Virus record (IMG/VR): IMGVR_UViG_3300013132_000144
Span: 1 to 32,695 of that record
DNA length: 32,695 bases
Strand: one strand, 5' to 3'
From: a virus
The position numbers and the translations under genes are program-made. Shown here one piece after another: positions 4,650 through 32,154 of this stretch (position 1 is its first letter; each line of letters opens with the position of its first letter). Under the pieces are notes generated by a model. That model was not told where the DNA came from. It did not search any database and saw nothing but the letters and a program-made list of their open reading frames with translations.

Positions 4650-4680
4650 TATTATTTGATTAAAATTAAATCAAATAATA
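4650..4680 (+). other. Perfect 12-bp hairpin before the resolvase gene
   Basis: Arms TATTATTTGATT (4650-4661) and AATCAAATAATA (4669-4680) are perfect reverse complements around a 7-base loop. It fills the gap between the end of the structural gene and the ATG at 4691. No T-run follows, so it is not a standard intrinsic terminator; it may be an operator, an mRNA end or a processing site. Confidence 0.5.
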
Positions 4681-4690
4681 TAAATTTTAT

Positions 4691-5299
4691 ATGTATGTAA
4701 ATATTAATGAATTAAAAAACAAATCAAAAATTTTAGGTCTTGACATAAGTACTAAAGTTATTGGATTTGCATTATTTGATTTATCTGATTCAAATTTATT
4801 GGAATTGACCCATTTTTCACCAAAAATAAAACCTCAACCTGAAGATAAAATAGAAGAATTATTAAAAAAAGCAGATGCATTTAAAGAACATATCAAAAAT
4901 TATACTAATTTAGGGATTACCAAAATTATTATCGAAGAACCTTTACTAAACTCAAATAACATATATACTGTTGGAACCTTAATTAGGTACAATACATTGA
5001 TATTGAAAAACTGTTATGATATTTTAGGTATTGTACCCACATTCATATCAACATATAATGCAAGACGATATGCATTTCCAAGTTTGGTTAGTAAAAATGA
5101 TAAAGGAAAAGAAGTTTTATTTGGTGGATTACCAAAAGATATAGACAAAAAAAAGATTATATGGGAACATGTAAATTCATTGTTTTCTGATATAAATTGG
5201 TTATATGATAAAAACAATCAATTAAAAAAAGAAAACTTTGATATGGCAGATGCTGCGACTTGTGTTATTGGTTATATGAATATGATTAAGACTGATTAG
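4691..5299 (+). CDS. RuvC-like Holliday junction resolvase
   Basis: A 202-residue RNase H-fold nuclease of the RuvC type. The four acidic positions expected for two-metal catalysis are visible: D18 in LGLDISTKVIGFALFD, E82/E83 in KIIIEEPLL, and D184 and D187 in FDMADAATCVIGY. It would cut four-way or branched DNA formed in recombination and replication so that DNA can be packaged, the role endonuclease VII plays in T4. It heads a run of replication and recombination genes (primase, RecB-like nuclease, gp47/gp46-like), which fits that job. The ATG at 4691 gives a short N-terminal extension before the first beta strand and no better start is present. Confidence 0.85.
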   Translation: MYVNINELKNKSKILGLDISTKVIGFALFDLSDSNLLELTHFSPKIKPQPEDKIEELLKKADAFKEHIKNYTNLGITKIIIEEPLLNSNNIYTVGTLIRYNTLILKNCYDILGIVPTFISTYNARRYAFPSLVSKNDKGKEVLFGGLPKDIDKKKIIWEHVNSLFSDINWLYDKNNQLKKENFDMADAATCVIGYMNMIKTD

Positions 5300-13145: not shown

Positions 13146-13964
13146 ATGAATAACATGAAGAAGTCAATTCTTAATGCTACTGAAGAAGTGCAGCAATACA
13201 TCAAGGATATTAGAAAAATTCCTGTCATAACACATGAAAGGCAAGAAGAAATTTTTATTCTATTAAATAATCCTATAATTACAAAAATTGAAAAAAAGAA
13301 ATTATATGATGAATTAGTAAAAGGTAATTTACGATTTGTTATATCTGTTGCTAAATCATATCAAAATCAAGGCATGGATATCATGGATTTGATATCTGAG
13401 GGTAATTTTGGATTAATAAAAGCCGCCGAAAGATTTAATCCAAATAATGGAGTCAAATTCATATCTTATGCTGTATGGTGGGTTAAACAAAGTATATTTG
13501 CAAGTTTAAATGAAAATGCGCGTACAATAAGATTACCATCAAATATTGTATTAGAAACTCAGAAACAAAAAAAAGACGACTCAATTGGTGAAGACAATCA
13601 TTTAATGAACTTTTCAGACACACAAAATATAACAAACTTACCTTATTGTGTAGGTTTATCTGACAGTATAAATGAAGATGGTGACCAACTAATTGATATC
13701 ATTCCTAATTTAAATGCAGATAACCCTGAAAATGCATTAAATAATTCGGATGAAATAAAAAAGAAAGTGGCACTTATGTTGAGTATATTAGATGAAAGAG
13801 AAAAAACAATAATTGAAAAGTATTATGGTCTTACTAATATTGAGTGTAATTTAGAAGATTTAGGAGAAGAGTTTGGTTGTACGAAAGAACGTATCAGACA
13901 AATAAAAGACCGAGCCATCAAAAAACTAAGAAATGAAAGTTTTACACTTCTTAAATATTTATAA
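13146..13964 (+). CDS. Sigma-70 family RNA polymerase sigma factor, RpoD-like, lacking region 3
   Basis: A 272-residue sigma factor. Region 2 (about 58-130) is very close to the Bacteroidetes primary sigma factor: NLRFVISVAKSYQNQGMDIM, LISEGNFGLIKAAERF, FISYAVWWVKQSI. Region 4 (about 205-265) includes LDEREKTIIEKYYGL and the helix-turn-helix LEDLGEEFGCTKERIRQIKD. Between them, region 3 is replaced by about 70 Asn/Asp-rich residues without an evident helix-turn-helix. An N-terminal region 1.2-like part (EEVQQYIKDI) is kept. It probably directs host RNA polymerase to phage promoters, the role of T4 gp55, although its sequence looks host-derived. The start is ATG 13146; ATG 13155 is possible. 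Confidence 0.92.
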   Translation: MNNMKKSILNATEEVQQYIKDIRKIPVITHERQEEIFILLNNPIITKIEKKKLYDELVKGNLRFVISVAKSYQNQGMDIMDLISEGNFGLIKAAERFNPNNGVKFISYAVWWVKQSIFASLNENARTIRLPSNIVLETQKQKKDDSIGEDNHLMNFSDTQNITNLPYCVGLSDSINEDGDQLIDIIPNLNADNPENALNNSDEIKKKVALMLSILDEREKTIIEKYYGLTNIECNLEDLGEEFGCTKERIRQIKDRAIKKLRNESFTLLKYL

Positions 13965-16637: not shown

Positions 16638-17392
16638 TGAATAAATTGAAAGGTGGTTTATCGGATAATAAGACAATTGGTGATTTATCAAATAAACATA
16701 AAATATCAATAGACAACATTTTATCCCAATTAAATAAAGGGGTAAAAATCGAGATGGAGCACACCACAGATAAACAAAAAGCAAAAGAGATTGCAATGGA
16801 CCACTTATATGAAGACCCCAAATATTATGATAAATTAAAAAAAATTGAGGTTGACGAAAAATGGTCAGAGAAATATAAAAAATCAATTGATTGTAGTAAT
16901 CCTAAAGGTTTCAGTCAAAGAGCACATTGTCAAGGTAAAAAAAAGGAAACAAAAGAAGCGACAGGTGCGAGTTCATCAGGTTCATTTGAAGGACCATTTT
17001 TGAGTGATAAACCAATAAGAAGAGATATTGGAACATATCATAATGCAAAATTAGATGAGGCGTTAGGTGGTACTGAGATGGGTAGTTACGATGTTCCATT
17101 TCTTGGTACAACACCGAAAGGTCGTAAGAATCCATTGAAAATTGATGGACCTGAAAGTATAAAAAAAAGTAGAGCGGTCAAAGATAAGAATTTTCCAAAA
17201 TGGGGTGGACCTAAAGGGATTTACATAAAAATAAAAGAGAAATGTAAAAAATTTCCATACTGCAATCAGGGGGATATAAATGCAATCGAAGTTTTGAAAG
17301 AATCAATCAATGATATGTCAAAAAAATATGGAATACCCAAAGATTATTTAGAACAAATAATAATAAATGAAATAAAGACAATATTTATATAA
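16637..17392 (+). CDS. DUF5661-like protein with phage NPKGFSQRAHC motif, putative assembly or virion protein
   Basis: The 251-residue protein starts with a segment matching DUF5661 (about 33-70: KGVKIEMEHTTDKQKAKEIA then DHLYEDPKYYDKL). Next is DCSNPKGFSQRAHCQGKKK (about 85-103), a motif I recall from virion-associated proteins of large phages. A linker follows with a twice-repeated short motif (GSFEGPFLSDKP and GSYDVPFLGTTP), then a second Cys motif (KCKKFPYCNQG) and a helical C-terminus. It overlaps the gene before it by one base and is one base from the next. The two Cys motifs may bind metal. A head or tail assembly role is inferred; enzymatic activity is not evident. Confidence 0.65.
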   Translation: MNKLKGGLSDNKTIGDLSNKHKISIDNILSQLNKGVKIEMEHTTDKQKAKEIAMDHLYEDPKYYDKLKKIEVDEKWSEKYKKSIDCSNPKGFSQRAHCQGKKKETKEATGASSSGSFEGPFLSDKPIRRDIGTYHNAKLDEALGGTEMGSYDVPFLGTTPKGRKNPLKIDGPESIKKSRAVKDKNFPKWGGPKGIYIKIKEKCKKFPYCNQGDINAIEVLKESINDMSKKYGIPKDYLEQIIINEIKTIFI

Positions 17393-17393
17393 T

Positions 17394-19184
17394 ATGAAAA
17401 TACGTGATTTTGAAAAATTAATTCAAGAATCTATTTCAGATAAAATTAAATCTGAAATTGTTAAAGAATCTTCAGAAAAATATTTAGTTAAAACTGAAGA
17501 TGGTGTTCCATTAGAGAGTTTTGATAAAAAAGAAGAGGCAGATAAATTCAAATCTGACCATGAGAAAAAAAATCCTAAACAAAAATTATTAGTTGATAAA
17601 TTCGGTTCTTATGATGATATGATGGAAGAATTGGATGAAATGAATGATAAATTAGAACAAAAAGAAATAAGTAATATGAAAAATGAAATGTCTAAGGATT
17701 CAAATTACATGAAAACTGAATCCGTAAAAAAGTTAGCAATATTAGCATCAAAAACTCGTAAATCCGCTGCAAATAAATTAATTAATTTAACTGAGACAAT
17801 CAAAAAAGGTAAAGTTAATTTGAATGATGTAATATCTATCCTTAACGAACACAAATTATATGACTTGAAAAAGAAAATTACATTAAAAGAAGATATGTTC
17901 GAACAAAATATGAACAATTCCGATGATGAATTATTTAATTTTGATGATTATAAAGATATGACCGATGATGATGATATTAATTTGGGAGATGATGATATTG
18001 ATGATATTGATGATATTGATGAGCCATCATACATAAAAAAACCGATGAGAAAGTCAGAATTTATGGATAATGAACCAGATGAATATGATGACATTAGAAG
18101 TTCTGATTTTCTAGATTACAATTCTGAGGAGGATGATGACGATATTATGTTTGACGATTTGAAAGAAATCGACATGGATGAAGAATTATATGAATTAAAT
18201 TTAGACGATGAAATGGATAATCCTAAAAAAAAATCAACTAAAATATCTCATGATTATTCATGGGAGGATGACTTTGAACTTGCCCGAGATTTAGATGACC
18301 AATTCGCGGATTATGACAGATACGACCCACATCCCGATGATGTTGATGATAATTCTCATGGAATGCCATGGGGATGGAAGTATACTGATGGTGGTCGAAT
18401 CGAAGATTTGGATGAAATGACAGAAATGGAACCCGATTTTTCTATGGAAGAAATGATGAGTATGGATGGTGATATGTATGAAGGGAAGGGAATGTGTTCT
18501 GAGTGTGGGTCAATGTTAAACGAGGAGGGCATGTGTTCTGAATGTATGAAAGAAGGTTCGTATATGAATGAATCAAAGAAAAGAAAATTAGTATTAAAAG
18601 AAAGTGAATTGATTAATCTTGTCAAAAAAATGGTTCTTGAATCTGTCCCCGGTTTATCAATTACGCAAAAAAATAGAAAAAAATCAGGTGCAGAATCTAA
18701 TAGTCATATGAAAGATGTGGAATCCAAAATGAAAAAGACAAGAAAATTTGATGGCAATGATAATCCATCATTTCCAAAGCAAATAGGAAAAGGAGAGAAA
18801 GTAGCAAGACAGAATACATCAGAAGAAGATAAGATTATGTCTACATACCGAGGTGGTGGTCTTGAAGATTTAAAGTATGATACTCAACCATCTAAGTCAT
18901 TCAATGAAAGGATTAAAAAAGCTCTAAAAGGTGATTCTACTATGGGTAATTCACAAGATTCACCCAATGTTATGAAATCTGATACTGGTGAAAACATCAT
19001 GAAAAAGGCTCAGATGAAAAAAGACACATTAGAAAAAGATACCAATGTAAGTTGGGGACATGCATGGAAAGAACCTGAAAAAGTAAAAATTGTAAAAGAA
19101 TCTAAAAATAAAGAATCTTCACAATTAAAAAAAGAAATGAATAGGATGAAAGACATCGCTTCATACAATAAAAAAACACAGTAA
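17394..19184 (+). CDS. Large acidic protein with CxxC-x9-CxxC zinc ribbon, putative assembly or virion protein
   Basis: A 596-residue, highly charged protein. The N-terminal part is helical and Lys/Glu-rich, including a short alpha/beta stretch (EKYLVKTEDGVPLESFDKKE). Residues about 175-365 are extremely Asp/Glu/Met-rich and probably disordered. A compact Cys motif follows (CSEC at 368-371 and CSEC at 381-384), encoded by a near-duplicate 15-base sequence, which could bind one zinc ion. The C-terminal third is basic and Ser/Lys-rich (SELINLVKKMVLES and onward). Acidic, modular proteins like this act as scaffold or core components in some large phages, but that is inference. A perfect hairpin lies just beyond the stop. 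Confidence 0.65.
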   Translation: MKIRDFEKLIQESISDKIKSEIVKESSEKYLVKTEDGVPLESFDKKEEADKFKSDHEKKNPKQKLLVDKFGSYDDMMEELDEMNDKLEQKEISNMKNEMSKDSNYMKTESVKKLAILASKTRKSAANKLINLTETIKKGKVNLNDVISILNEHKLYDLKKKITLKEDMFEQNMNNSDDELFNFDDYKDMTDDDDINLGDDDIDDIDDIDEPSYIKKPMRKSEFMDNEPDEYDDIRSSDFLDYNSEEDDDDIMFDDLKEIDMDEELYELNLDDEMDNPKKKSTKISHDYSWEDDFELARDLDDQFADYDRYDPHPDDVDDNSHGMPWGWKYTDGGRIEDLDEMTEMEPDFSMEEMMSMDGDMYEGKGMCSECGSMLNEEGMCSECMKEGSYMNESKKRKLVLKESELINLVKKMVLESVPGLSITQKNRKKSGAESNSHMKDVESKMKKTRKFDGNDNPSFPKQIGKGEKVARQNTSEEDKIMSTYRGGGLEDLKYDTQPSKSFNERIKKALKGDSTMGNSQDSPNVMKSDTGENIMKKAQMKKDTLEKDTNVSWGHAWKEPEKVKIVKESKNKESSQLKKEMNRMKDIASYNKKTQ

Positions 19185-19200
19185 GTATACACTTTTTTTT

Positions 19201-19236
19201 GTCCCCCATATCAATTATATTATTGATATGGGGGAC
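19201..19236 (+). promoter_or_regulatory. Perfect 15-bp hairpin containing the start codon of the next gene
   Basis: Arms GTCCCCCATATCAAT (19201-19215) and ATTGATATGGGGGAC (19222-19236) pair perfectly around a 6-base loop. The ATG of the next gene is bases 19228-19230, inside the 3' arm and paired with CAT of the 5' arm. A T-run precedes the hairpin and TTCTTTTTT follows five bases after it, so it could also serve as a terminator for the gene upstream. Five consecutive G:C pairs in such AT-rich DNA argue against chance. Confidence 0.75.
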
Positions 19237-19674
19237 AATTCTTTTTTGACATTTAGTGATAATTATAAGAATCATATTGATATTTGGTTCAAAGCATATA
19301 ACATAAGTTACGAAAAATTATCATTGTATTATGATTTTCTTATGTCATTATATGAGTTGATTGACAAAACTTATTTAGGTAATGATGTAATAATAACAGA
19401 TGAAAATCAAAAAGAACATTTTGATTGGTGTTGGAAAAAAGTCATCAATAATTTCGAAAAAGAAAAAATAAATTTTAAATACGATGGATATCATTACGAG
19501 TATTTTTGGAATTTTTTCAAAGAAGCTTTTTATCATAATAAATCAATTGATGAAAATGTTAAAATACTTCAATATTTTAAAATTTTATTTGATTTCAACC
19601 ATACAAAAACTCGTTCTGAGATTGATGTATTGACTGAATTATATAAAATATTCAATGAAAGCTTGAAAAAATGA
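19228..19674 (+). CDS. Hypothetical protein with hairpin-occluded start
   Basis: A 148-residue, aromatic-rich, mostly helical protein (NHIDIWFKAYNISYEKLSLY, HFDWCWKKVINNFEKEK, YHYEYFWNFFKEAFYHNK). The sequence looks protein-like throughout from about residue 10, so the ATG at 19228 is favoured; the next in-frame ATG (19342) would remove well-formed helices. The start codon lies in a perfect hairpin, so expression may depend on unfolding or processing of the mRNA. No known domain is recognised. Confidence 0.7.
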   Translation: MGDNSFLTFSDNYKNHIDIWFKAYNISYEKLSLYYDFLMSLYELIDKTYLGNDVIITDENQKEHFDWCWKKVINNFEKEKINFKYDGYHYEYFWNFFKEAFYHNKSIDENVKILQYFKILFDFNHTKTRSEIDVLTELYKIFNESLKK

Positions 19675-22473: not shown

Positions 22474-22484
22474 AATTGAATATT

Positions 22485-23012
22485 ATGAAATCGTTTTGGT
22501 ACGTATTGAAAGTTATACCAGGTAAAGAAAGACAACTAAAAGAGCATTTTAATCAACAAATAAATTTAGGTAGAATTCTAAATGTTAATAGATTTATTTG
22601 TCCAACTGAAAAAGAATATATTGTTGTTAAGACAAAAAAGGTATTAAGAGAAAAAGTAATTTATAATGGATATTTATATTTTGAAACCAAACGTGTTTTA
22701 AATGAGGATGAATTAAAAAATTTCTCATCAATACCAAATATCATGGGTATGTTAGGAGATAAAAAACCTATTTTATTATCTACTTCAGACGTTGAAAGAA
22801 TTCTCAAAGATGATATGTTGGATGATTATGTTGAGACAAAAAAACTTAAATACACCTTGGGTGAAGAAGTCATAATAACCGATGGTCCTTTCAAAACATT
22901 TGAAGGTGCAATAAAAAATGTATTAGAAGATAAGGTCGATTTGGACGTTAAAATATTTGGTAGAAAAACTTTGGTTTCATTAAATATAAATCAAATTGAA
23001 AAAAAACAATGA
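22485..23012 (+). CDS. nusG: NusG-like transcription elongation factor
   Basis: A 175-residue protein with the two NusG domains: an N-terminal NGN domain opening SFWYVLKVIPGKERQLKEHF and a C-terminal KOW domain (about 118-170: GEEVIITDGPFKTFEGAIKN, then FGRKTLVSLNINQIEKK). It would bind RNA polymerase during elongation and affect pausing, termination or the link to translation. A phage copy could act as antiterminator, or pair with the phage sigma factor to take over host polymerase. The start is ATG 22485; a TTG at 22476 gives three more residues. Its last four bases overlap the next start (ATGA). Confidence 0.85.
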   Translation: MKSFWYVLKVIPGKERQLKEHFNQQINLGRILNVNRFICPTEKEYIVVKTKKVLREKVIYNGYLYFETKRVLNEDELKNFSSIPNIMGMLGDKKPILLSTSDVERILKDDMLDDYVETKKLKYTLGEEVIITDGPFKTFEGAIKNVLEDKVDLDVKIFGRKTLVSLNINQIEKKQ

Positions 23013-24670: not shown

Positions 24671-24698
24671 AGGGGGACTGAAAAAGTTCCCTTTTTTT
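24671..24698 (+). terminator. Intrinsic terminator after glutaredoxin
   Basis: A stem GGGGGACT / AGTTCCCT (two G:U pairs) with a GAAAA loop is followed by an unbroken run of T to 24698, and flanking A and T runs extend the stem. It lies 7 bases after the glutaredoxin stop and separates the regulatory operon from the fibre block. This is the clearest terminator in the window. Confidence 0.88.
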
Positions 24699-24727
24699 GT
24701 CATTAAATTATAATAAAAGTATTTATG
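24696..24727 (+). promoter_or_regulatory. Possible Bacteroidetes-type promoter for the fibre block
   Basis: TTTG (24696-24699), a 20-base spacer and TATTTATG (24720-24727) differ by one base from TTTG-N20-TAnnTTTG, with the same spacing as the clpP promoter. The TTTG overlaps the T tail of the terminator. The predicted transcript would start 10-15 bases before the ATG at 24747. Confidence 0.4.
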
Positions 24728-24744
24728 TATAATACTTTTATTAT
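24710..24744 (+). promoter_or_regulatory. Perfect 14-bp palindrome before the fibre block
   Basis: Arms ATAATAAAAGTATT (24710-24723) and AATACTTTTATTAT (24731-24744) are perfect reverse complements with a 7-base centre TATGTAT. The right arm ends two bases before the ATG at 24747, and the centre coincides with the end of the putative -7 element. This fits an operator, or an mRNA leader hairpin, controlling the beta-helix fibre gene. Confidence 0.65.
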
Positions 24745-24746
24745 AG

Positions 24747-26663
24747 ATGGCATTACAAAAAATAAATTGGACACAAATTGACAGTATAAATATACCTTCT
24801 GGTTATACTGTCGATATTGGTAACCCAACGGGTTCAATTAATGCAATATATTCAGATAATATTTATTTATCTGGTTCCCCTATACAGAATTATTTTAGCG
24901 AAGGTTCAATTTGGCAACAAACGGGTTCTTTTTATGCTACTACCAACGATTTACAAGTTACTGGTTCATTATCGATAAGTGGTAGTTTAAGTGTTACTGG
25001 TGGTATATTGGGGGTTGGGGATATTGAAACAATATTTTATGTTTCAGAAGAAGGTTCTGATACTAATGATGGGAAGTCATTAGATTCTGCGTTTAGAACA
25101 ATTAAGAGAGCAGCACAAGCGGCTACAACATTAAAAGCATCAAGACCAAGTTATAATCGTAGTCCTGCTATTACAGGAACAACAACACCTACAAGAATAT
25201 CAATACAAATAAAAACTGGTTATTATGTTGAGGAGGGTCCGATAACCATACCAGCAAATACATCTTTACTTGGTGATGATTTAAGAACTGTTGTTATTAG
25301 ACCAACAGATGCAACCAAGGGTGAGAATTTGTTTTTAATGAACAATGGTACATATGCGTGGGGTCTAAGATTGGAGGGTTGTGAGATAGATGATTTAGAA
25401 GACCCAAGAAAAGGTTTCTTTTTTGCATTTGCACCAAATGCATATATTGTCACATCACCTTATATTCAAAACTGTACGGCATTACATACACCGGCAGATA
25501 AATTCTACGTTCCCCTTAATCCAACGGGAGCAACACCCAATGAACTTGTTGGTAATGGTCCTGGAGGTATGATTATTGACGATAGTGTCTTGAATGGTTA
25601 TAGTCCATTGAAATCAATGATTGTTGATGCATATACACAGGTTGCTTTCAATGGTATCGGTCTTTGTGTAAGAGGTAGAGGTTATGCACAAATGGTATCC
25701 TTTTTCACAAACTTCTCAAGAGTCGGCACATATGCCATAGATGGTGGACATGCATCATTACTTAATTCTAATACGACATTTGGTGATTATGGTTTAAGGT
25801 CCAAAGGACATAGAATATTGGTTGTTCCAAGCACAACTGGTGTAACCACAAATATTGATGTTAGTGGTTCATTGGTTGTTAAAAATAATAAAAACAACAT
25901 CAGAAATTACATGATTTCTAAATTACAGCAATCAGGAAGTTATAATGTTGAATACAATAACACAGGGTCATCAATATATAATTCTACAGTTACTGATTCT
26001 GAGTTATTAATTGATGCAATTGCAGATGACTTGTTATCACCAAAAGCAGGTAGAATAACACAATTTACAACTGGTTTATTCAAAGGTCAAGATGTATCAT
26101 CTGGTAGTGTGTACACAGTACCTACTGTCAGCGGATTTACAAAGGGGGCAATTGCAGTATTTCCATTGATATCGAATGCAAGTGGCTCACTTGCGGGTGA
26201 TTTTATAAAATCATATGAATATATCAAGGAATATGTTGTTGATGACCCAGACAATGTTTTCACGGGTTTGACAGCAACAACAATATCAAAAATTGAACAA
26301 CTGATTGATGTTCCTATTGATACACTACAAAGTGTAATAGTTAATAATGAAGGAACATATTTACAAGAGTTTGGTTCACTAATCACATCAACATCACATG
26401 ATTTCTCATATGCTGGTTCTGGTGTTAACTTTTTAGCACTACCTATCAACCAAGGTGGTATCGGAGTAACAGATATTGATTTAAGGGTATATCAGGAAGG
26501 TGGCGGTAGAGTCTACCATACATCAGGTGATGAAACAGGTGATTTTTATTCTGGTAATGATTTTGTTATCAGACAAGAAACGGGAACAATTGAAGGAAGA
26601 ACATTTTATAAAGCAATTTCTTCAGTCATAACACCCATAAATTTAGCATTAGAGAGCAATTAA
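24747..26663 (+). CDS. Tail fibre-like protein with pectate-lyase-type beta-helix
   Basis: The 638-residue protein has an N-terminal region with short repeated strands (DLQVTGSLSISGSLSVTGG, about 69-87) like those in the large fibre downstream. From about residue 97 it has a right-handed beta-helix region introduced by FYVSEEGSDTNDGKSLDSAF, RTIKRAAQ, the usual entry of pectate-lyase-like phage proteins, with IPANTSLLGDDLRTVVIRP and YAWGLRLEGCEIDD further on. T4-like marine phages carry a similar virion protein. It may form a rigid spike or bind and cut polysaccharide; catalytic residues cannot be identified by eye. It is the first gene of the fibre block, just after a terminator and a palindrome. 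Confidence 0.85.
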   Translation: MALQKINWTQIDSINIPSGYTVDIGNPTGSINAIYSDNIYLSGSPIQNYFSEGSIWQQTGSFYATTNDLQVTGSLSISGSLSVTGGILGVGDIETIFYVSEEGSDTNDGKSLDSAFRTIKRAAQAATTLKASRPSYNRSPAITGTTTPTRISIQIKTGYYVEEGPITIPANTSLLGDDLRTVVIRPTDATKGENLFLMNNGTYAWGLRLEGCEIDDLEDPRKGFFFAFAPNAYIVTSPYIQNCTALHTPADKFYVPLNPTGATPNELVGNGPGGMIIDDSVLNGYSPLKSMIVDAYTQVAFNGIGLCVRGRGYAQMVSFFTNFSRVGTYAIDGGHASLLNSNTTFGDYGLRSKGHRILVVPSTTGVTTNIDVSGSLVVKNNKNNIRNYMISKLQQSGSYNVEYNNTGSSIYNSTVTDSELLIDAIADDLLSPKAGRITQFTTGLFKGQDVSSGSVYTVPTVSGFTKGAIAVFPLISNASGSLAGDFIKSYEYIKEYVVDDPDNVFTGLTATTISKIEQLIDVPIDTLQSVIVNNEGTYLQEFGSLITSTSHDFSYAGSGVNFLALPINQGGIGVTDIDLRVYQEGGGRVYHTSGDETGDFYSGNDFVIRQETGTIEGRTFYKAISSVITPINLALESN

Positions 26664-27033: not shown

Positions 27034-30000
27034 GTGAATAAAAGAATAGGTAGGAAAGAAGTTGAAGTAAATATAAATTCCCCGAAAGAAGGACATCTCC
27101 CGATATTTGATGAGAGTTTAAGGTTATGGGAAACTATATCTAAAGAAGATTTGACTTCAGGTAGTGCACAATTAAGTGGTTCCAATAATTATACTGGTAG
27201 TCAATATATTTCAGGTTCAATAACAGCAACTGGAGATATACAAACATATGGGTCTATAATAGCGCAACAATTTATTGTAAGTTCATCAGTTGCATATATT
27301 ACAACAAGTTTTGCAAGTGGTTCAAATATATTCGGTAATTCTTTAGACGATACTCACGTTTTTACCGGTTCAGTTAATATAACAGGTAGTTTTTCTTTAC
27401 CTGCATATGACTCAAATCCTATTGGTACATATACTGGTCAATTATATTATAACACTTTAGACACAAACATATATAGATACGATGGTGCAGTTTGGTTAGC
27501 AGCGGCAGGTTCATCAGGAACTGCAGGTACTTCAGGAAGTTCGGGTACATCTGGAACAAGCGGTAGTTCAGGAACATCGGGTTCATCAGGAACATCGGGT
27601 TCATCAGGAACAAGTGGTTCATCTGGAACTTCAGGAACATCGGGTACATCGGGAAGTTCAGGAACAAGTGGAACATCAGGAAGTGCGGGTACCTCAGGTA
27701 CTTCAGGTAGTGATGGTAGCTCAGGAACTGCGGGAACATCGGGTTCATCAGGAACAAGTGGTTCATCTGGAACATCAGGAACATCAGGAACATCGGGTAG
27801 TGCTGGTACATCAGGTGTACAAGGAGATAAGGGAGGTTTAATTTTTTCATTTATTGGTCAAACAGGTGTATTCCAACCAGGATTTGGAAATTTTGCGGTT
27901 GATAACACAGCAATTTCAGGTGTAACATCATTGTATATTGATGATTTAACTTATAATGGTGCAGATGTCAGAAATTATTTAATACAATGGGATGATTCAA
28001 ATACAACACCCAAAGGAACCATAATCATAAAAAGTAATGAAAACCCAGATTCTACGGTTTGTATTTTCAATAATACGGGTATTGTTCAAGAAAACTTAGG
28101 GTGGGTTGAAGTATATGTTACATACATTTCTGGTACAGCGTTAACAATAGGAAAAAATTATGTAATAGATTTTTATAGAACAGGAGATTCTGGTACAAGT
28201 GGTACAAGTGGTACAAGTGGTACAAGTGGTACAAGTGGCACAAGTGGTACATCAGGTTCTTCTGGTACAAGTGGTACTTCAGGAACTTCAGGAACCTCAG
28301 GAACATCGGGGACTTCAGGTACTTCAGGTTCTTCTGGTACAAGTGGTACTTCAGGTACTTCAGGAACTTCAGGAAGTTGTGGTACATCAGGATTGTCAGG
28401 TTCATCAGGAACAAGCGGAACATCAGGTACAAGTGGTGTCGATGGCGTTTCAGGTACATCAGGGACATCAGGTAGTAGTGGAACATCAGGTACTTCTGGG
28501 ACATCAGGAAGTGCGGGTACGTCAGGTAGTGCTGGTACGTCAGGTAGTGGGGGTTCTTCAGGTACATCAGGTACTTCGGGAACATCGGGTACGTCAGGTA
28601 CAGGATTTGATACAATTTTCAATCCATCAGAAGGAAGAGTATTATTATCTGATGGTACAACCAATGCTGCAACAGCATCATCTAATTTAGTTTTTACAGG
28701 TGATACTTTATCAGTTTTTGGAAATCAATACATAGCAGGTGACTTAGTTATAACTGGTTCACTTACCGCGCAACAATTTATTGTTTCATCATCTGTTTCA
28801 ATAATTACAACCTCATTCAGTAGTGGTTCAACACAATTTGGTGATAGTTTAGAAGATAATCATAATTTCACCGGTTCTGTAAATATTACAGGAAGTTTAA
28901 ATATTAATGGAACTTCATATACCGCTGCAACATCAGGAACATCTGGTACAAGTGGTACATCAGGGAGTAGTGGTACATCGGGGAGTAGTGGAACATCTGG
29001 CACATCAGGAACTTCAGGTTCATCAGGAACTTCTGGTACTTCAGGTTCTACAGGAACCTCAGGGACATCAGGAACCTCAGGAACGAGTGGAACCTCAGGA
29101 ACGAGTGGAACATCAGGTACATCTGGAACAAGCGGAGAACAAGGGGATAAAGGGGGGTTACTGTACACGTTTAATACATCGACGGGTACATTCGAACCGC
29201 CATTCGGACAATTTGCATATAATAACACTATTGCATCAGGTGTAACATCAGTATTCATTGATGATTATACTTCTGACAATGGTTATGTATTTGACTATAT
29301 TGATACTTGGGATGATTCAAACTCATCTATCAAGGGAACATTAATCATAAAAAGTAACGTAAATTCAGATACAACATTTACCATATTTTCAGTAACATCA
29401 ATAAATCAAAATTTAGGGTGGCACGAAATTTATGTTCAATATGTTAGTGGTACAATTCCTTCAAATTCTGAAGAATGTGTTATTGAATTTATAAGAACAG
29501 GTAATTCGGGAAGTTCAGGTACATCAGGTACAAGTGGTACTTCTGGTAGTTCTGGAACTTCAGGTACTAGTGGTTCTTCAGGTACTTCTGGTAGTAGTGG
29601 AACATCAGGAACAAGTGGTAGTTCTGGTACAGGTGGTTCTTCAGGAACAAGTGGAACTTCAGGAAGTAACGGAACAAGTGGTACATCAGGTACTTCTGGA
29701 ACATCTGGAAGTAGTGGAACATCTGGTACATCAGGTAGTTCAGGAACAAGTGGAACATCAGGGACTAGCGGAACATCTGGTACATCAGGTAGTTCAGGAA
29801 CAAGTGGAACATCTGGTTCTTCAGGAACAAGTGGCACATCAGGTTCAAGTGGAACCTCAGGAAGTGACGGAACAAGTGGTACATCAGGGTCTAGTGGAAC
29901 ATCAGGTACTTCAGGTTCTTCAGGTACAAGTGGTAGTTCAGGTTCTATGGGTACATCAGGTACAAGTGGCACATCAGGTTCTTCTGGTACTTCAGGAACA

Positions 30001-32154
30001 TCAGGAAGTTCAGGAACAAGTGGTACATCAGGTTCAAGTGGTACATCGGGAACTTCAGGTACATCAGGAACATCGGGGTCTAGTGGAACTTCAGGTACAA
30101 GTGGTACATCAGGTAGTTCCGGAACAAGTGGAACATCAGGTACAGGATTTAGTACAATCAATAATGCTGGTAATGGTAGAGTTTTATTATCAGATGGAAC
30201 AACAAATGCTGCAACAGCATCATCTAATTTGGTTTATAATAATGGATTATTAACAGTTGATGGTAATCAATTAATTAACGGAAATCTTATTGTTACAGGT
30301 TCTTTAATTGCTCAACAATTTATAGTATCATCATCAGTCTCAATAATTACAACTTCTTTTAGTAGTGGTAGCACAAAATTTGGTGATTCTTTAGATGACA
30401 CACATCAATTTACTGGTTCCATAACAATAACAGGTTCATTACAAATACCCAATTCTTCAACAACACCATTATTAAACGCAACAGGTGCGTTGTACTATAA
30501 CACAACAGATACAAATATCTATAGATACAATGGTACATCTTGGGTAAGTGCAGCAGGAACTTCTGGTACTTCTGGTAGTATTGGAACTTCTGGTTCTTCG
30601 GGTACATCAGGAACTAGTGGAAGTTCGGGTAGTAGTGGAACATCTGGTACATCAGGTACAAGTGGTACTTCTGGTAGTAGTGGAACATCTGGTACATCAG
30701 GTACAAGTGGTACTTCTGGTAGTAGTGGTACATCGGGTACTTCAGGTACAAGTGGTTCTTCAGGAACAAGTGGAACATCAGGTTCTTCAGGAACAAGTGG
30801 AACATCAGGAAGTTCGGGTACATCAGGAACGAGTGGTAGTAGTGGGACTTCAGGTTCATCAGGAACGAGTGGTTCGTCTGGTACAAGTGGTACATCGGGT
30901 TCTTCAGGAAGTTCAGGAACAAGTGGAACATCAGGAAGTTCGGGTACATCAGGAACGAGTGGCAGTAGTGGAACATCAGGAAGTTCGGGTACATCAGGAA
31001 CGAGTGGTTCGTCTGGTACAAGTGGAACATCAGGGTCTTCAGGTAGTAGTGGAACAAGTGGTAGTAGTGGAACAAGTGGTACATCTGGTTCTTCAGGAAC
31101 ATCAGGTACATCTGGGTCAAGTGGCACATCAGGTTCTTCAGGAAGTTCAGGAACAAGTGGAACATCAGGAAGTAGTGGTACATCAGGCAGTTCAGGAACA
31201 AGTGGTACATCAGGTTCTTCAGGTACTAGTGGGGCATCAGGTTCATCAGGTACTTCAGGAACAAGTGGAAGTTCAGGTACTTCAGGTACTTCAGGAAGTA
31301 GTGGTACATCAGGTACAAGTGGAACTGGATTCAGTACCATTACTAATGCTGTTGATGATAGAATATTAACATCACTTGGTACATCAAATACAGCAAATGC
31401 TGAAACAAATTTAACATTCGATGGGACAAACTTGAGGGTTACAGGTTCTGCACGAATTACAGGAAGTTTGGAAGTAACAGGTTCATTAACATCAATATTT
31501 GGTTCAGCAATTGAATTTCAAGTAACAAGTACAAACGTAAGAATTGGTAATGCTTTGACCGATATTCACCCTGTGACAGGTAGTGTTAACGTAACAGGTG
31601 CATTGTCAGTTAGGAATACGATATCTGCATCCAATGTTTATATTTCAAGTTCTGAAACACAAGCATTAACAGTTATTGGTTCAGGTTCGGCATTACCATT
31701 GTTTAGTGTACTCGGTAGTCAAGGTGAGTTGTTCTCAATCACGGATAGTCTTTCAGGTTCATTATTCTCTGTGAATGACATATCTGGTTTACCAATATTG
31801 GAGGTATTCTCCGATGATTCCGTATTGTTGGGTGATAGTGTTGCACCAGTTCTTCATACAACAAAGAGAGTAACATTAGGTGCGGGTTCAACTACAATAT
31901 ACAATATGCTCACAAGTTCATATGATGGTATGTTTGTGGATTATCTGATTAGAAGTGGTTCAAATGGTAGAGGTGGACAATTTATGGCAATGTGGAGTGG
32001 TTCCGCAACTGTTATAAGTGATGTATCAACTATCGATTTTGGAACAACTTCAGGTGTGGCGTTCAACGCAATAATATCTGGTTCAAACATGGTTATGACA
32101 AGTTCCGCGTCAACAGGTGCATGGACCGGTAAGTTTATAATTAGAACAATATAA
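27034..32154 (+). CDS. Giant collagen-like tail fibre protein (1706 residues)
   Basis: It starts at GTG (MNKRIGRKEVEVNINSP). Five Gly-X-Y blocks, mainly GTS and GSS, make up about 46% of the protein (residues 159-267, 387-524, 633-707, 826-1038, 1175-1432). The blocks join two kinds of repeated globular module: type A with AQQFIVSSSV - ITTSF - FTGS-NITGS (four copies, the last diverged) and type B entered by GDKGG with WDDSN and LGWxEVYV (two copies, 268-386 and 708-825). The C-terminal 270 residues are a distinct beta-rich domain, possibly for trimerisation or receptor binding. Such Gly-X-Y stretches form collagen-like triple helices in phage fibres even without proline. The high Gly content raises local G+C. 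It is likely a receptor-binding fibre. Confidence 0.88.
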   Translation: MNKRIGRKEVEVNINSPKEGHLPIFDESLRLWETISKEDLTSGSAQLSGSNNYTGSQYISGSITATGDIQTYGSIIAQQFIVSSSVAYITTSFASGSNIFGNSLDDTHVFTGSVNITGSFSLPAYDSNPIGTYTGQLYYNTLDTNIYRYDGAVWLAAAGSSGTAGTSGSSGTSGTSGSSGTSGSSGTSGSSGTSGSSGTSGTSGTSGSSGTSGTSGSAGTSGTSGSDGSSGTAGTSGSSGTSGSSGTSGTSGTSGSAGTSGVQGDKGGLIFSFIGQTGVFQPGFGNFAVDNTAISGVTSLYIDDLTYNGADVRNYLIQWDDSNTTPKGTIIIKSNENPDSTVCIFNNTGIVQENLGWVEVYVTYISGTALTIGKNYVIDFYRTGDSGTSGTSGTSGTSGTSGTSGTSGSSGTSGTSGTSGTSGTSGTSGTSGSSGTSGTSGTSGTSGSCGTSGLSGSSGTSGTSGTSGVDGVSGTSGTSGSSGTSGTSGTSGSAGTSGSAGTSGSGGSSGTSGTSGTSGTSGTGFDTIFNPSEGRVLLSDGTTNAATASSNLVFTGDTLSVFGNQYIAGDLVITGSLTAQQFIVSSSVSIITTSFSSGSTQFGDSLEDNHNFTGSVNITGSLNINGTSYTAATSGTSGTSGTSGSSGTSGSSGTSGTSGTSGSSGTSGTSGSTGTSGTSGTSGTSGTSGTSGTSGTSGTSGEQGDKGGLLYTFNTSTGTFEPPFGQFAYNNTIASGVTSVFIDDYTSDNGYVFDYIDTWDDSNSSIKGTLIIKSNVNSDTTFTIFSVTSINQNLGWHEIYVQYVSGTIPSNSEECVIEFIRTGNSGSSGTSGTSGTSGSSGTSGTSGSSGTSGSSGTSGTSGSSGTGGSSGTSGTSGSNGTSGTSGTSGTSGSSGTSGTSGSSGTSGTSGTSGTSGTSGSSGTSGTSGSSGTSGTSGSSGTSGSDGTSGTSGSSGTSGTSGSSGTSGSSGSMGTSGTSGTSGSSGTSGTSGSSGTSGTSGSSGTSGTSGTSGTSGSSGTSGTSGTSGSSGTSGTSGTGFSTINNAGNGRVLLSDGTTNAATASSNLVYNNGLLTVDGNQLINGNLIVTGSLIAQQFIVSSSVSIITTSFSSGSTKFGDSLDDTHQFTGSITITGSLQIPNSSTTPLLNATGALYYNTTDTNIYRYNGTSWVSAAGTSGTSGSIGTSGSSGTSGTSGSSGSSGTSGTSGTSGTSGSSGTSGTSGTSGTSGSSGTSGTSGTSGSSGTSGTSGSSGTSGTSGSSGTSGTSGSSGTSGSSGTSGSSGTSGTSGSSGSSGTSGTSGSSGTSGTSGSSGTSGSSGTSGTSGSSGTSGTSGSSGSSGTSGSSGTSGTSGSSGTSGTSGSSGTSGSSGSSGTSGTSGSSGTSGSSGTSGTSGSSGTSGASGSSGTSGTSGSSGTSGTSGSSGTSGTSGTGFSTITNAVDDRILTSLGTSNTANAETNLTFDGTNLRVTGSARITGSLEVTGSLTSIFGSAIEFQVTSTNVRIGNALTDIHPVTGSVNVTGALSVRNTISASNVYISSSETQALTVIGSGSALPLFSVLGSQGELFSITDSLSGSLFSVNDISGLPILEVFSDDSVLLGDSVAPVLHTTKRVTLGAGSTTIYNMLTSSYDGMFVDYLIRSGSNGRGGQFMAMWSGSATVISDVSTIDFGTTSGVAFNAIISGSNMVMTSSASTGAWTGKFIIRTI
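27508..27834 (+). repeat. Collagen-like (G-T/S-S)n block 1
   Basis: About 109 codons of Gly-X-Y, mostly GGA/GGT ACA TCA-type 9-base units coding GTS, GSS and GTA. It ends with VQGDKGG leading into the first type B module. Confidence 0.9.
28192..28605 (+). repeat. Collagen-like block 2, with five identical 9-mers
   Basis: It opens with five identical copies of GGTACAAGT (28192-28236) and a one-base variant, then becomes mixed. It includes unusual triplets (GSC, GLS, GVD, GVS, GSG) and leads through GTGF into the second type A module. Identical tandem units are a likely slippage site; losses or gains of nine bases keep the frame. Confidence 0.9.
28930..29154 (+). repeat. Collagen-like block 3
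   Basis: About 75 codons of GTS/GSS triplets between type A and type B modules, the shortest of the five blocks, ending in EQGDKGG like block 1. Confidence 0.88.
29509..30147 (+). repeat. Collagen-like block 4
   Basis: About 213 codons of Gly-X-Y, dominated by GTSGTSGSS with rare GSN, GSD, GSM and a GTGGSS interruption. It joins the second type B module to the third type A module through GTGF. Confidence 0.88.
30556..31329 (+). repeat. Collagen-like block 5, with nested duplications
   Basis: About 258 codons, the longest block. A 45-base unit is present twice exactly (30628-30672 and 30673-30717) and begins a third time. A second unit, containing GGAAGTTCGGGTACATCAGG and AACGAGTGG, recurs near 30809, 30931 and 30979, so this block has grown by recent duplications. 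Confidence 0.88.

Follow-up and report, generated by a model that had tools for sequence, protein, structure and literature searches.

A perfect hairpin at positions 19199–19238 of the window, by which we mean the whole 32,695-nucleotide stretch of viral DNA analysed here, encloses the start codon of a gene for a 148-residue protein and is directly followed by a U-run. On the basis of sequence, folding and comparison with relatives, we propose, with a probability of roughly 0.55, that this single element acts both as the terminator of the upstream transcription unit and as a lock closing the next start, insulating a 148-residue gene that would have its own promoter. The hairpin probably terminates transcription of the upstream gene in these uncultivated phages, and the 148-residue gene is probably not producible from messages running on from its neighbour. 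The features of this junction are:

17381–17388, + strand: late-type motif ATATTTAT, at −13 relative to the upstream gene's ATG (k-mer motif from relatives)
17394–19184, + strand: upstream gene, 596 residues, with the end ...YNKKTQ, whose transcript runs into the hairpin (open reading frame; C-terminal end and position shared in relatives)
19199–19215, + strand: 5′ arm of the hairpin, TTGTCCCCCATATCAAT (sequence read, fold)
19215–19221, + strand: TTATATT box, of which TATATT is the loop, proposed −7/−10 element of the promoter of the 148-residue gene (conserved in one clade of relatives, clade A; promoter role inferred)
19222–19238, + strand: 3′ arm of the hairpin, ATTGATATGGGGGACAA, which holds the start codon (sequence read, fold, relatives)
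19228–19674, + strand: gene for a 148-residue, all-helical protein, with its ATG (19228–19230) in the 3′ arm (open reading frame, relatives, structure model)
19239–19247, + strand: U-run TTCTTTTTT right behind the stem, within codons 4 to 7 of the 148-residue gene (sequence read, terminator scan)

A terminator-shaped hairpin encloses the start codon

Read on the + strand, the segment 19199–19247 consists of TTGTCCCCCATATCAAT, TATATT, ATTGATATGGGGGACAA and TTCTTTTTT. The two arms (19199–19215 and 19222–19238) form a perfect stem of 17 bp with seven G:C pairs and the six-base loop TATATT, the run GTCCCCC sits at the stem base of this 19199–19238 hairpin, and the ATG lies wholly within the 3′ arm. 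The perfect stem enclosing the ATG that had been noticed in the first-pass annotation is thus even longer than the 15 bp claimed there. Its remark that the genome avoids G:C runs holds for CCCCC, which occurs once on the + strand of the window, but not for GGGGG, which occurs 13 times.

The hairpin RNA folds with −32.2 kcal/mol as compared to −14.0 ± 3.0 kcal/mol for shuffled sequences (z = −6.0), with 0 shuffles equally stable, and this leader fold bears out the earlier suggestion that the start would be closed in read-through RNA. The 17-bp stem is the longest perfect one in the window, whereas 40 dinucleotide shuffles of the whole window yielded 12 bp at most, and the hairpin has the most base pairs among all matches of the window's terminator scan. 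T occupies eight of the nine bases of TTCTTTTTT, immediately 3′ of the stem. With its stem, loop and U-run, the element has the shape of a terminator overlapping the gene start, as had also been put forward at first reading, and carries every feature of an intrinsic terminator that is checkable from sequence. Like intrinsic (Rho-independent) terminators, it combines a G+C-rich stem past a gene end with a short loop and an adjoining U-run; unlike the usual ones, its stem and U-run overlap codons 1 to 7 of the following gene, whose start codon is thereby concealed. The gap from the upstream stop codon to the stem, on the same strand, is 14 nt. Ribosomes of E. coli can suppress a terminator located about 14 nt past a stop codon, and termination at the window hairpin may be weakened for this reason.

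A search of the window with the Rfam 15 covariance models returned no family at gathering score. A repeated or mobile element was rejected as the origin of the structure, the hairpin being single-copy in the record and its exact arms absent from the viral contigs searched.

Identification of the start codon and the encoded protein

The ATG at 19228 is believable as the true start. The nearest relatives begin with MENREGYLEFITSENYKNQIDIW where the window has MGDNSFLTFSDNYKNHIDIW, at a matching place (best tblastn segment at most 64% identical), and this match puts the ATG at the homologous position. A start elsewhere was rejected because the only other nearby in-frame start is a TTG at 19246, in the U-run, and the ATG of the relatives matches 19228. 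Conservation of the protein sets in about 12 codons past this ATG, and the structure model assigns low confidence to residues 1–12; such a tail would fit a freedom of this segment to serve RNA structure. The 148-residue protein has no Pfam, PHROG, PDB-sequence or fold relative with known function, nor any relative of solved structure.

Across the family, the fold energy of the start region separates these starts from those of other genes (−14.9 vs −6.3). The accessibility of the start codon does not, with a median of 0.37 in the family and 0.37 in other genes (p = 0.05), in a comparison where the outer of two ATGs was taken in some rows and where, for some members of clade A, the ATG falls within an internal loop.

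Paired changes around the start codon in relatives

The 148-residue family was found in uncultivated phages from viral metagenomes, with 80 loci kept out of 85 and 46 distinct proteins including that of the window; searches of named phages and species genomes gave no relatives. In the protein tree, the window sits on a long branch inside the well-supported clade A (21 members). In clade B (16 rows), the proteins have starts of the type MENFFNY or MDNFFNY, and the genes have their ATG within the 3′ arm of a strong hairpin with a T-run behind it, as in TTCTCCATAGA-CAAAC-TCTATGGAGAA-TTTTTTT and AATTATCCATAGA-TGAAC-TCTATGGATAATT-TTTTT. Every clade B member thus shares with the window an ATG within the 3′ arm, at a nearly constant position, and the distance from stop codon to stem is about 25 nt in clade B vs 14 nt in the window. 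Within clade A, to which the window belongs, the hairpin is less strong, has interruptions and mostly carries no U-run, which makes termination doubtful in most of its members. The most conserved intergenic block of the clade A alignment is TTATATT, corresponding in the window to the loop and the preceding base. The letters of loop and stem differ between the clades, and pairing alone is kept.

This pairing was followed in an ATG-aligned set of 14 sequences (the window and clade B), with each row placed in the register of its own best stem, a choice that favours pairing. Positions 0 to +2 are paired in 14/14 rows. Within the same rows, the pair at +5 is G-C, T-A or A-T and that at −2 is C-G, T-A, A-T or T-G; positions +4 and +6 form A-T pairs in clade B and G-C pairs in the window. 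Coevolution was also probed by a swap test, in which each upstream half was joined to the start region of every relative, with no correction for common descent. All clade B halves fold better with their own start than the swap mean, 0 of 20000 permutations matching the observed sum, and the test on representatives only gives p = 0.0001 (descent uncorrected); the control swap at the starts of neighbouring genes has no effect in this clade. For clade A the test gives p = 0.004 (descent uncorrected), but one neighbouring gene also scores in the control (p = 0.0006, about 0.5 kcal/mol), which leaves clade A weak as evidence by itself. The alignment and the swap tests together reveal, in relatives, the compensatory stem changes that the first-pass annotation had named as something to check.

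The structure depends on the upstream neighbour

The structure is present at the 38 loci whose upstream gene ends in ...TQ, with a median of −15.1 kcal/mol, and absent at five loci with other upstream neighbours (−7.8 kcal/mol; p = 0.0006 vs the 38, descent uncorrected). The possibility that relatives keep the start codon and lack the stem, raised at first reading, is clearly realised only at these five loci; the clade A stem is weaker and interrupted, not absent. Among relatives, the T content of the nine bases past the stem increases with stem length (rho = 0.67, descent uncorrected), and the two loci with the weakest structures of clade B (L066 and L083) also have broken T-runs. Two loci of the other-neighbour group (L007 and L009) carry a separate terminator and then a free start, a separate terminator is found at the same junction in L085, and in L087 a terminator-like hairpin stops just short of the ATG. 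From these separate and merged terminators, the task of the junction seems to be the stopping of transcription from upstream, the terminator seemingly being merged with the gene start in the window and clade B. A homologue search with the 596-residue upstream gene itself gave no matches, probably due to the high variability of that gene.

These observations bear on the best-surviving alternative, a simple intrinsic terminator whose overlap with the next start reflects nothing but genome compactness. The closed start would then be a side effect, and the gene would be expressed by read-through or breathing of the stem. The classic anatomy, the U-run that accompanies strong stems and the separate terminators in L085, L009 and L087 all agree with it. 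We nevertheless consider it rather unlikely, since both the window and every clade B member have the ATG at a near-fixed place of the 3′ arm, though a terminator a few bases upstream would do, and since the pairing of the start is kept in clade A, where the U-run is mostly missing.

Promoter motifs suggest a late upstream unit

Promoter motifs were obtained from upstream k-mers in two long relative records, G006 and G001. The motif ATATTTAT precedes 41 of 124 spaced gene starts, at about −12 or −22, vs 3.1 expected (G006, L099–L112), and TATATTTG is enriched in G001 (11/73 vs 0.4). Families preceded by ATATTTAT are annotated as structural, head-tail, endolysin and peptidase proteins, with helicase matches as exceptions; those preceded by TAnnTTTG include methyltransferase, primase, SbcC, RNA ligase, DnaA-like and ClpP families. 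From this gene content we infer that ATATTTAT is a late-type motif, and it is a strong candidate for the late promoter of this phage group. TAnnTTTG, which TATATTTG matches, equals the −7 box recognised by the housekeeping sigma factor of Bacteroidota, located 4 or 5 nt from the RNA start (PMC6847099), which makes a Bacteroidota host likely.

At the junction itself, [AG]TATTTAT precedes the homologous upstream gene in 35 of the 38 loci having that neighbour, and the segment 19184–19228 of the window contains neither this pattern nor TATAAATA. In G001, TATATTTG is positioned at −21 of the 148-residue gene, between the arms, and some other members of clade A carry this box as well; a transcript beginning 4 or 5 nt past it would be made without the 5′ arm. 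The window box TATATTAT, at −12, misses the last two letters of TAnnTTTG, and the promoter predicted there would yield a leaderless RNA, which is the least certain element of our proposal. A further candidate for a general promoter, TTTATATT before the ATG, was rejected as not clearly above the reversed pattern in most of eight records.

Since the late-type motif belongs to the upstream gene, the likely purpose of the arrangement is to keep the 148-residue gene out of late read-through. The timing switch envisaged in the first-pass annotation is retained as far as the closed start is concerned, but its direction is not: the hairpin would most likely silence late read-through into a gene under an earlier, host-type promoter rather than delaying that gene. 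The window also encodes a phage sigma factor and a NusG-like protein (13146–13964 and 22476–23012), either of which could alter promoter use or termination at the hairpin.

Comparison with known regulatory hairpins

The T4 literature consulted here describes start-closing hairpins in T4 and its relatives. The starts of T4 e, soc, 49 and I-TevI are closed in long early RNA and opened by a nearby late promoter (PMC3014915, PMC2988022). As in these four genes, the start region of the window gene is part of the 3′ arm of a stable hairpin, which would form only in a long upstream RNA, and a promoter-like box is found between or at the arms, here the conserved TATATT of the loop as a candidate promoter element. 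Unlike the T4 switches, the window hairpin bears a U-run and is thus terminator-shaped, its 5′ strand lacks the late box TATAAATA, and it is the upstream gene that carries the late-type motif, so that the long RNA would be late and not early. Because of these differences, the element is one that would work like a T4 switch yet is not classed as a member of that group.

The shared geometry, the pairing of clade A without a U-run and the promoter-like box between the arms could also be read as a T4-type timing switch devoid of termination, with the long RNA closed, the RNA from an internal promoter open, and the U-run an incidental consequence of Phe codons. Such a switch appears improbable: stem strength and U-run go together, and the Phe-Phe of clade B is lost in the window, yet T still fills eight of nine positions behind the stem. 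Switch and terminator had originally been posed as alternatives; each description stands, but they do not exclude one another, as both belong to one element.

Still less probable is a processing or binding site, whereby an RNase III-like enzyme would cleave the stem, or the 148-residue protein would bind it and so repress its own synthesis. Although T4 gp43 and gp32 each bind a structured leader in their own mRNA (PMC3014915) and the 148-residue protein is without an assigned function, only the pairing, and neither loop nor stem sequence, is common to both clades, and no sign of RNA binding was seen. A functionless chance palindrome or recent copying error can be dismissed: a search of viral contigs found no close relative of the window carrying the same hairpin, as such an accident would have it, but stem length and fold stability are far beyond the shuffles, the U-run is present and the same arrangement recurs in a distant clade.

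As for terminators, the E. coli tR2 construct W48 (PMC4824070) likewise places one at the very beginning of a reading frame, but in that laboratory construct an open start lies ahead of the terminator, whereas the start in the window is inside the stem. A literature search of partial coverage returned, among the titles listed, no matching case of a natural terminator hiding the next start codon.

Other gene-start hairpins and features of the window

The three longest perfect stems of the window are all at gene starts. In the region 24709–24747, a perfect 15-bp A+T hairpin with the late-type motif GTATTTAT at its tip directly precedes a 638-residue gene (24747), and in the region L092:2050–2118 the homologue from another phage has its ATG (2104) inside a hairpin arm behind the same motif, which resembles the classical T4 late-gene arrangement. 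In the region 4650–4691, another perfect A+T hairpin, of 12 bp, lies ten bases ahead of the ATG of a RuvC-like gene. In G001, a near-perfect A+T hairpin carrying TATATTTT at its tip (z = −6.0) encloses the ATG (L096:13988) of a gene of about 470 residues. A second terminator-like hairpin, GGGGACT-GAAAA-AGTTCCC followed by TTTTTTT (24671–24698), closes the unit ahead of gene 24747 and had not been picked up by the terminator scan. Finally, a 1706-residue frame (27034–32154) consists largely of GTSGTSGSSG repeats and is probably a fibre-like structural protein.

Proposed mechanism and significance

Based on the above data, we propose that a polymerase starting from the late-type promoter at 17381 would make the hairpin and its U-run and mostly halt at about codon 6 or 7 of the 148-residue gene. 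In the terminated RNA as well as in any read-through RNA, the start codon would be locked in the stem and ribosomes could not initiate. In E. coli, a terminator less than 100 bp into a reading frame functions, but ribosomes starting there lack a stop codon (PMC4824070). Since the ATG is hidden here, this cost would be removed, and the locked ATG on the terminated RNA would also spare ribosomes from stalling on stopless RNA. The promoter of the 148-residue gene itself, with the TATATT box in the loop, would generate an RNA that begins past the 5′ arm and whose start is open. It is tempting, if doubtful as a complete account, to view the 40-nt palindrome as a three-in-one insulator, acting as late-unit terminator, lock on the next start and frame of a promoter, which would be the reverse of the T4 lysozyme switch, with its pairing kept by compensatory change throughout a large group of uncultivated phages.

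If the proposed combination of terminator and lock is true, one hairpin would end the first message, lock the next start and spare ribosomes a stopless RNA, achieving a compact separation of two differently timed genes about 45 bases apart without cross-talk. A start-closing pairing kept by compensatory change would thereby exist in phages distant from T4, whose hosts are probably without Shine-Dalgarno signals. It would also provide a clue to the 148-residue family, namely that its protein probably must not be made late.
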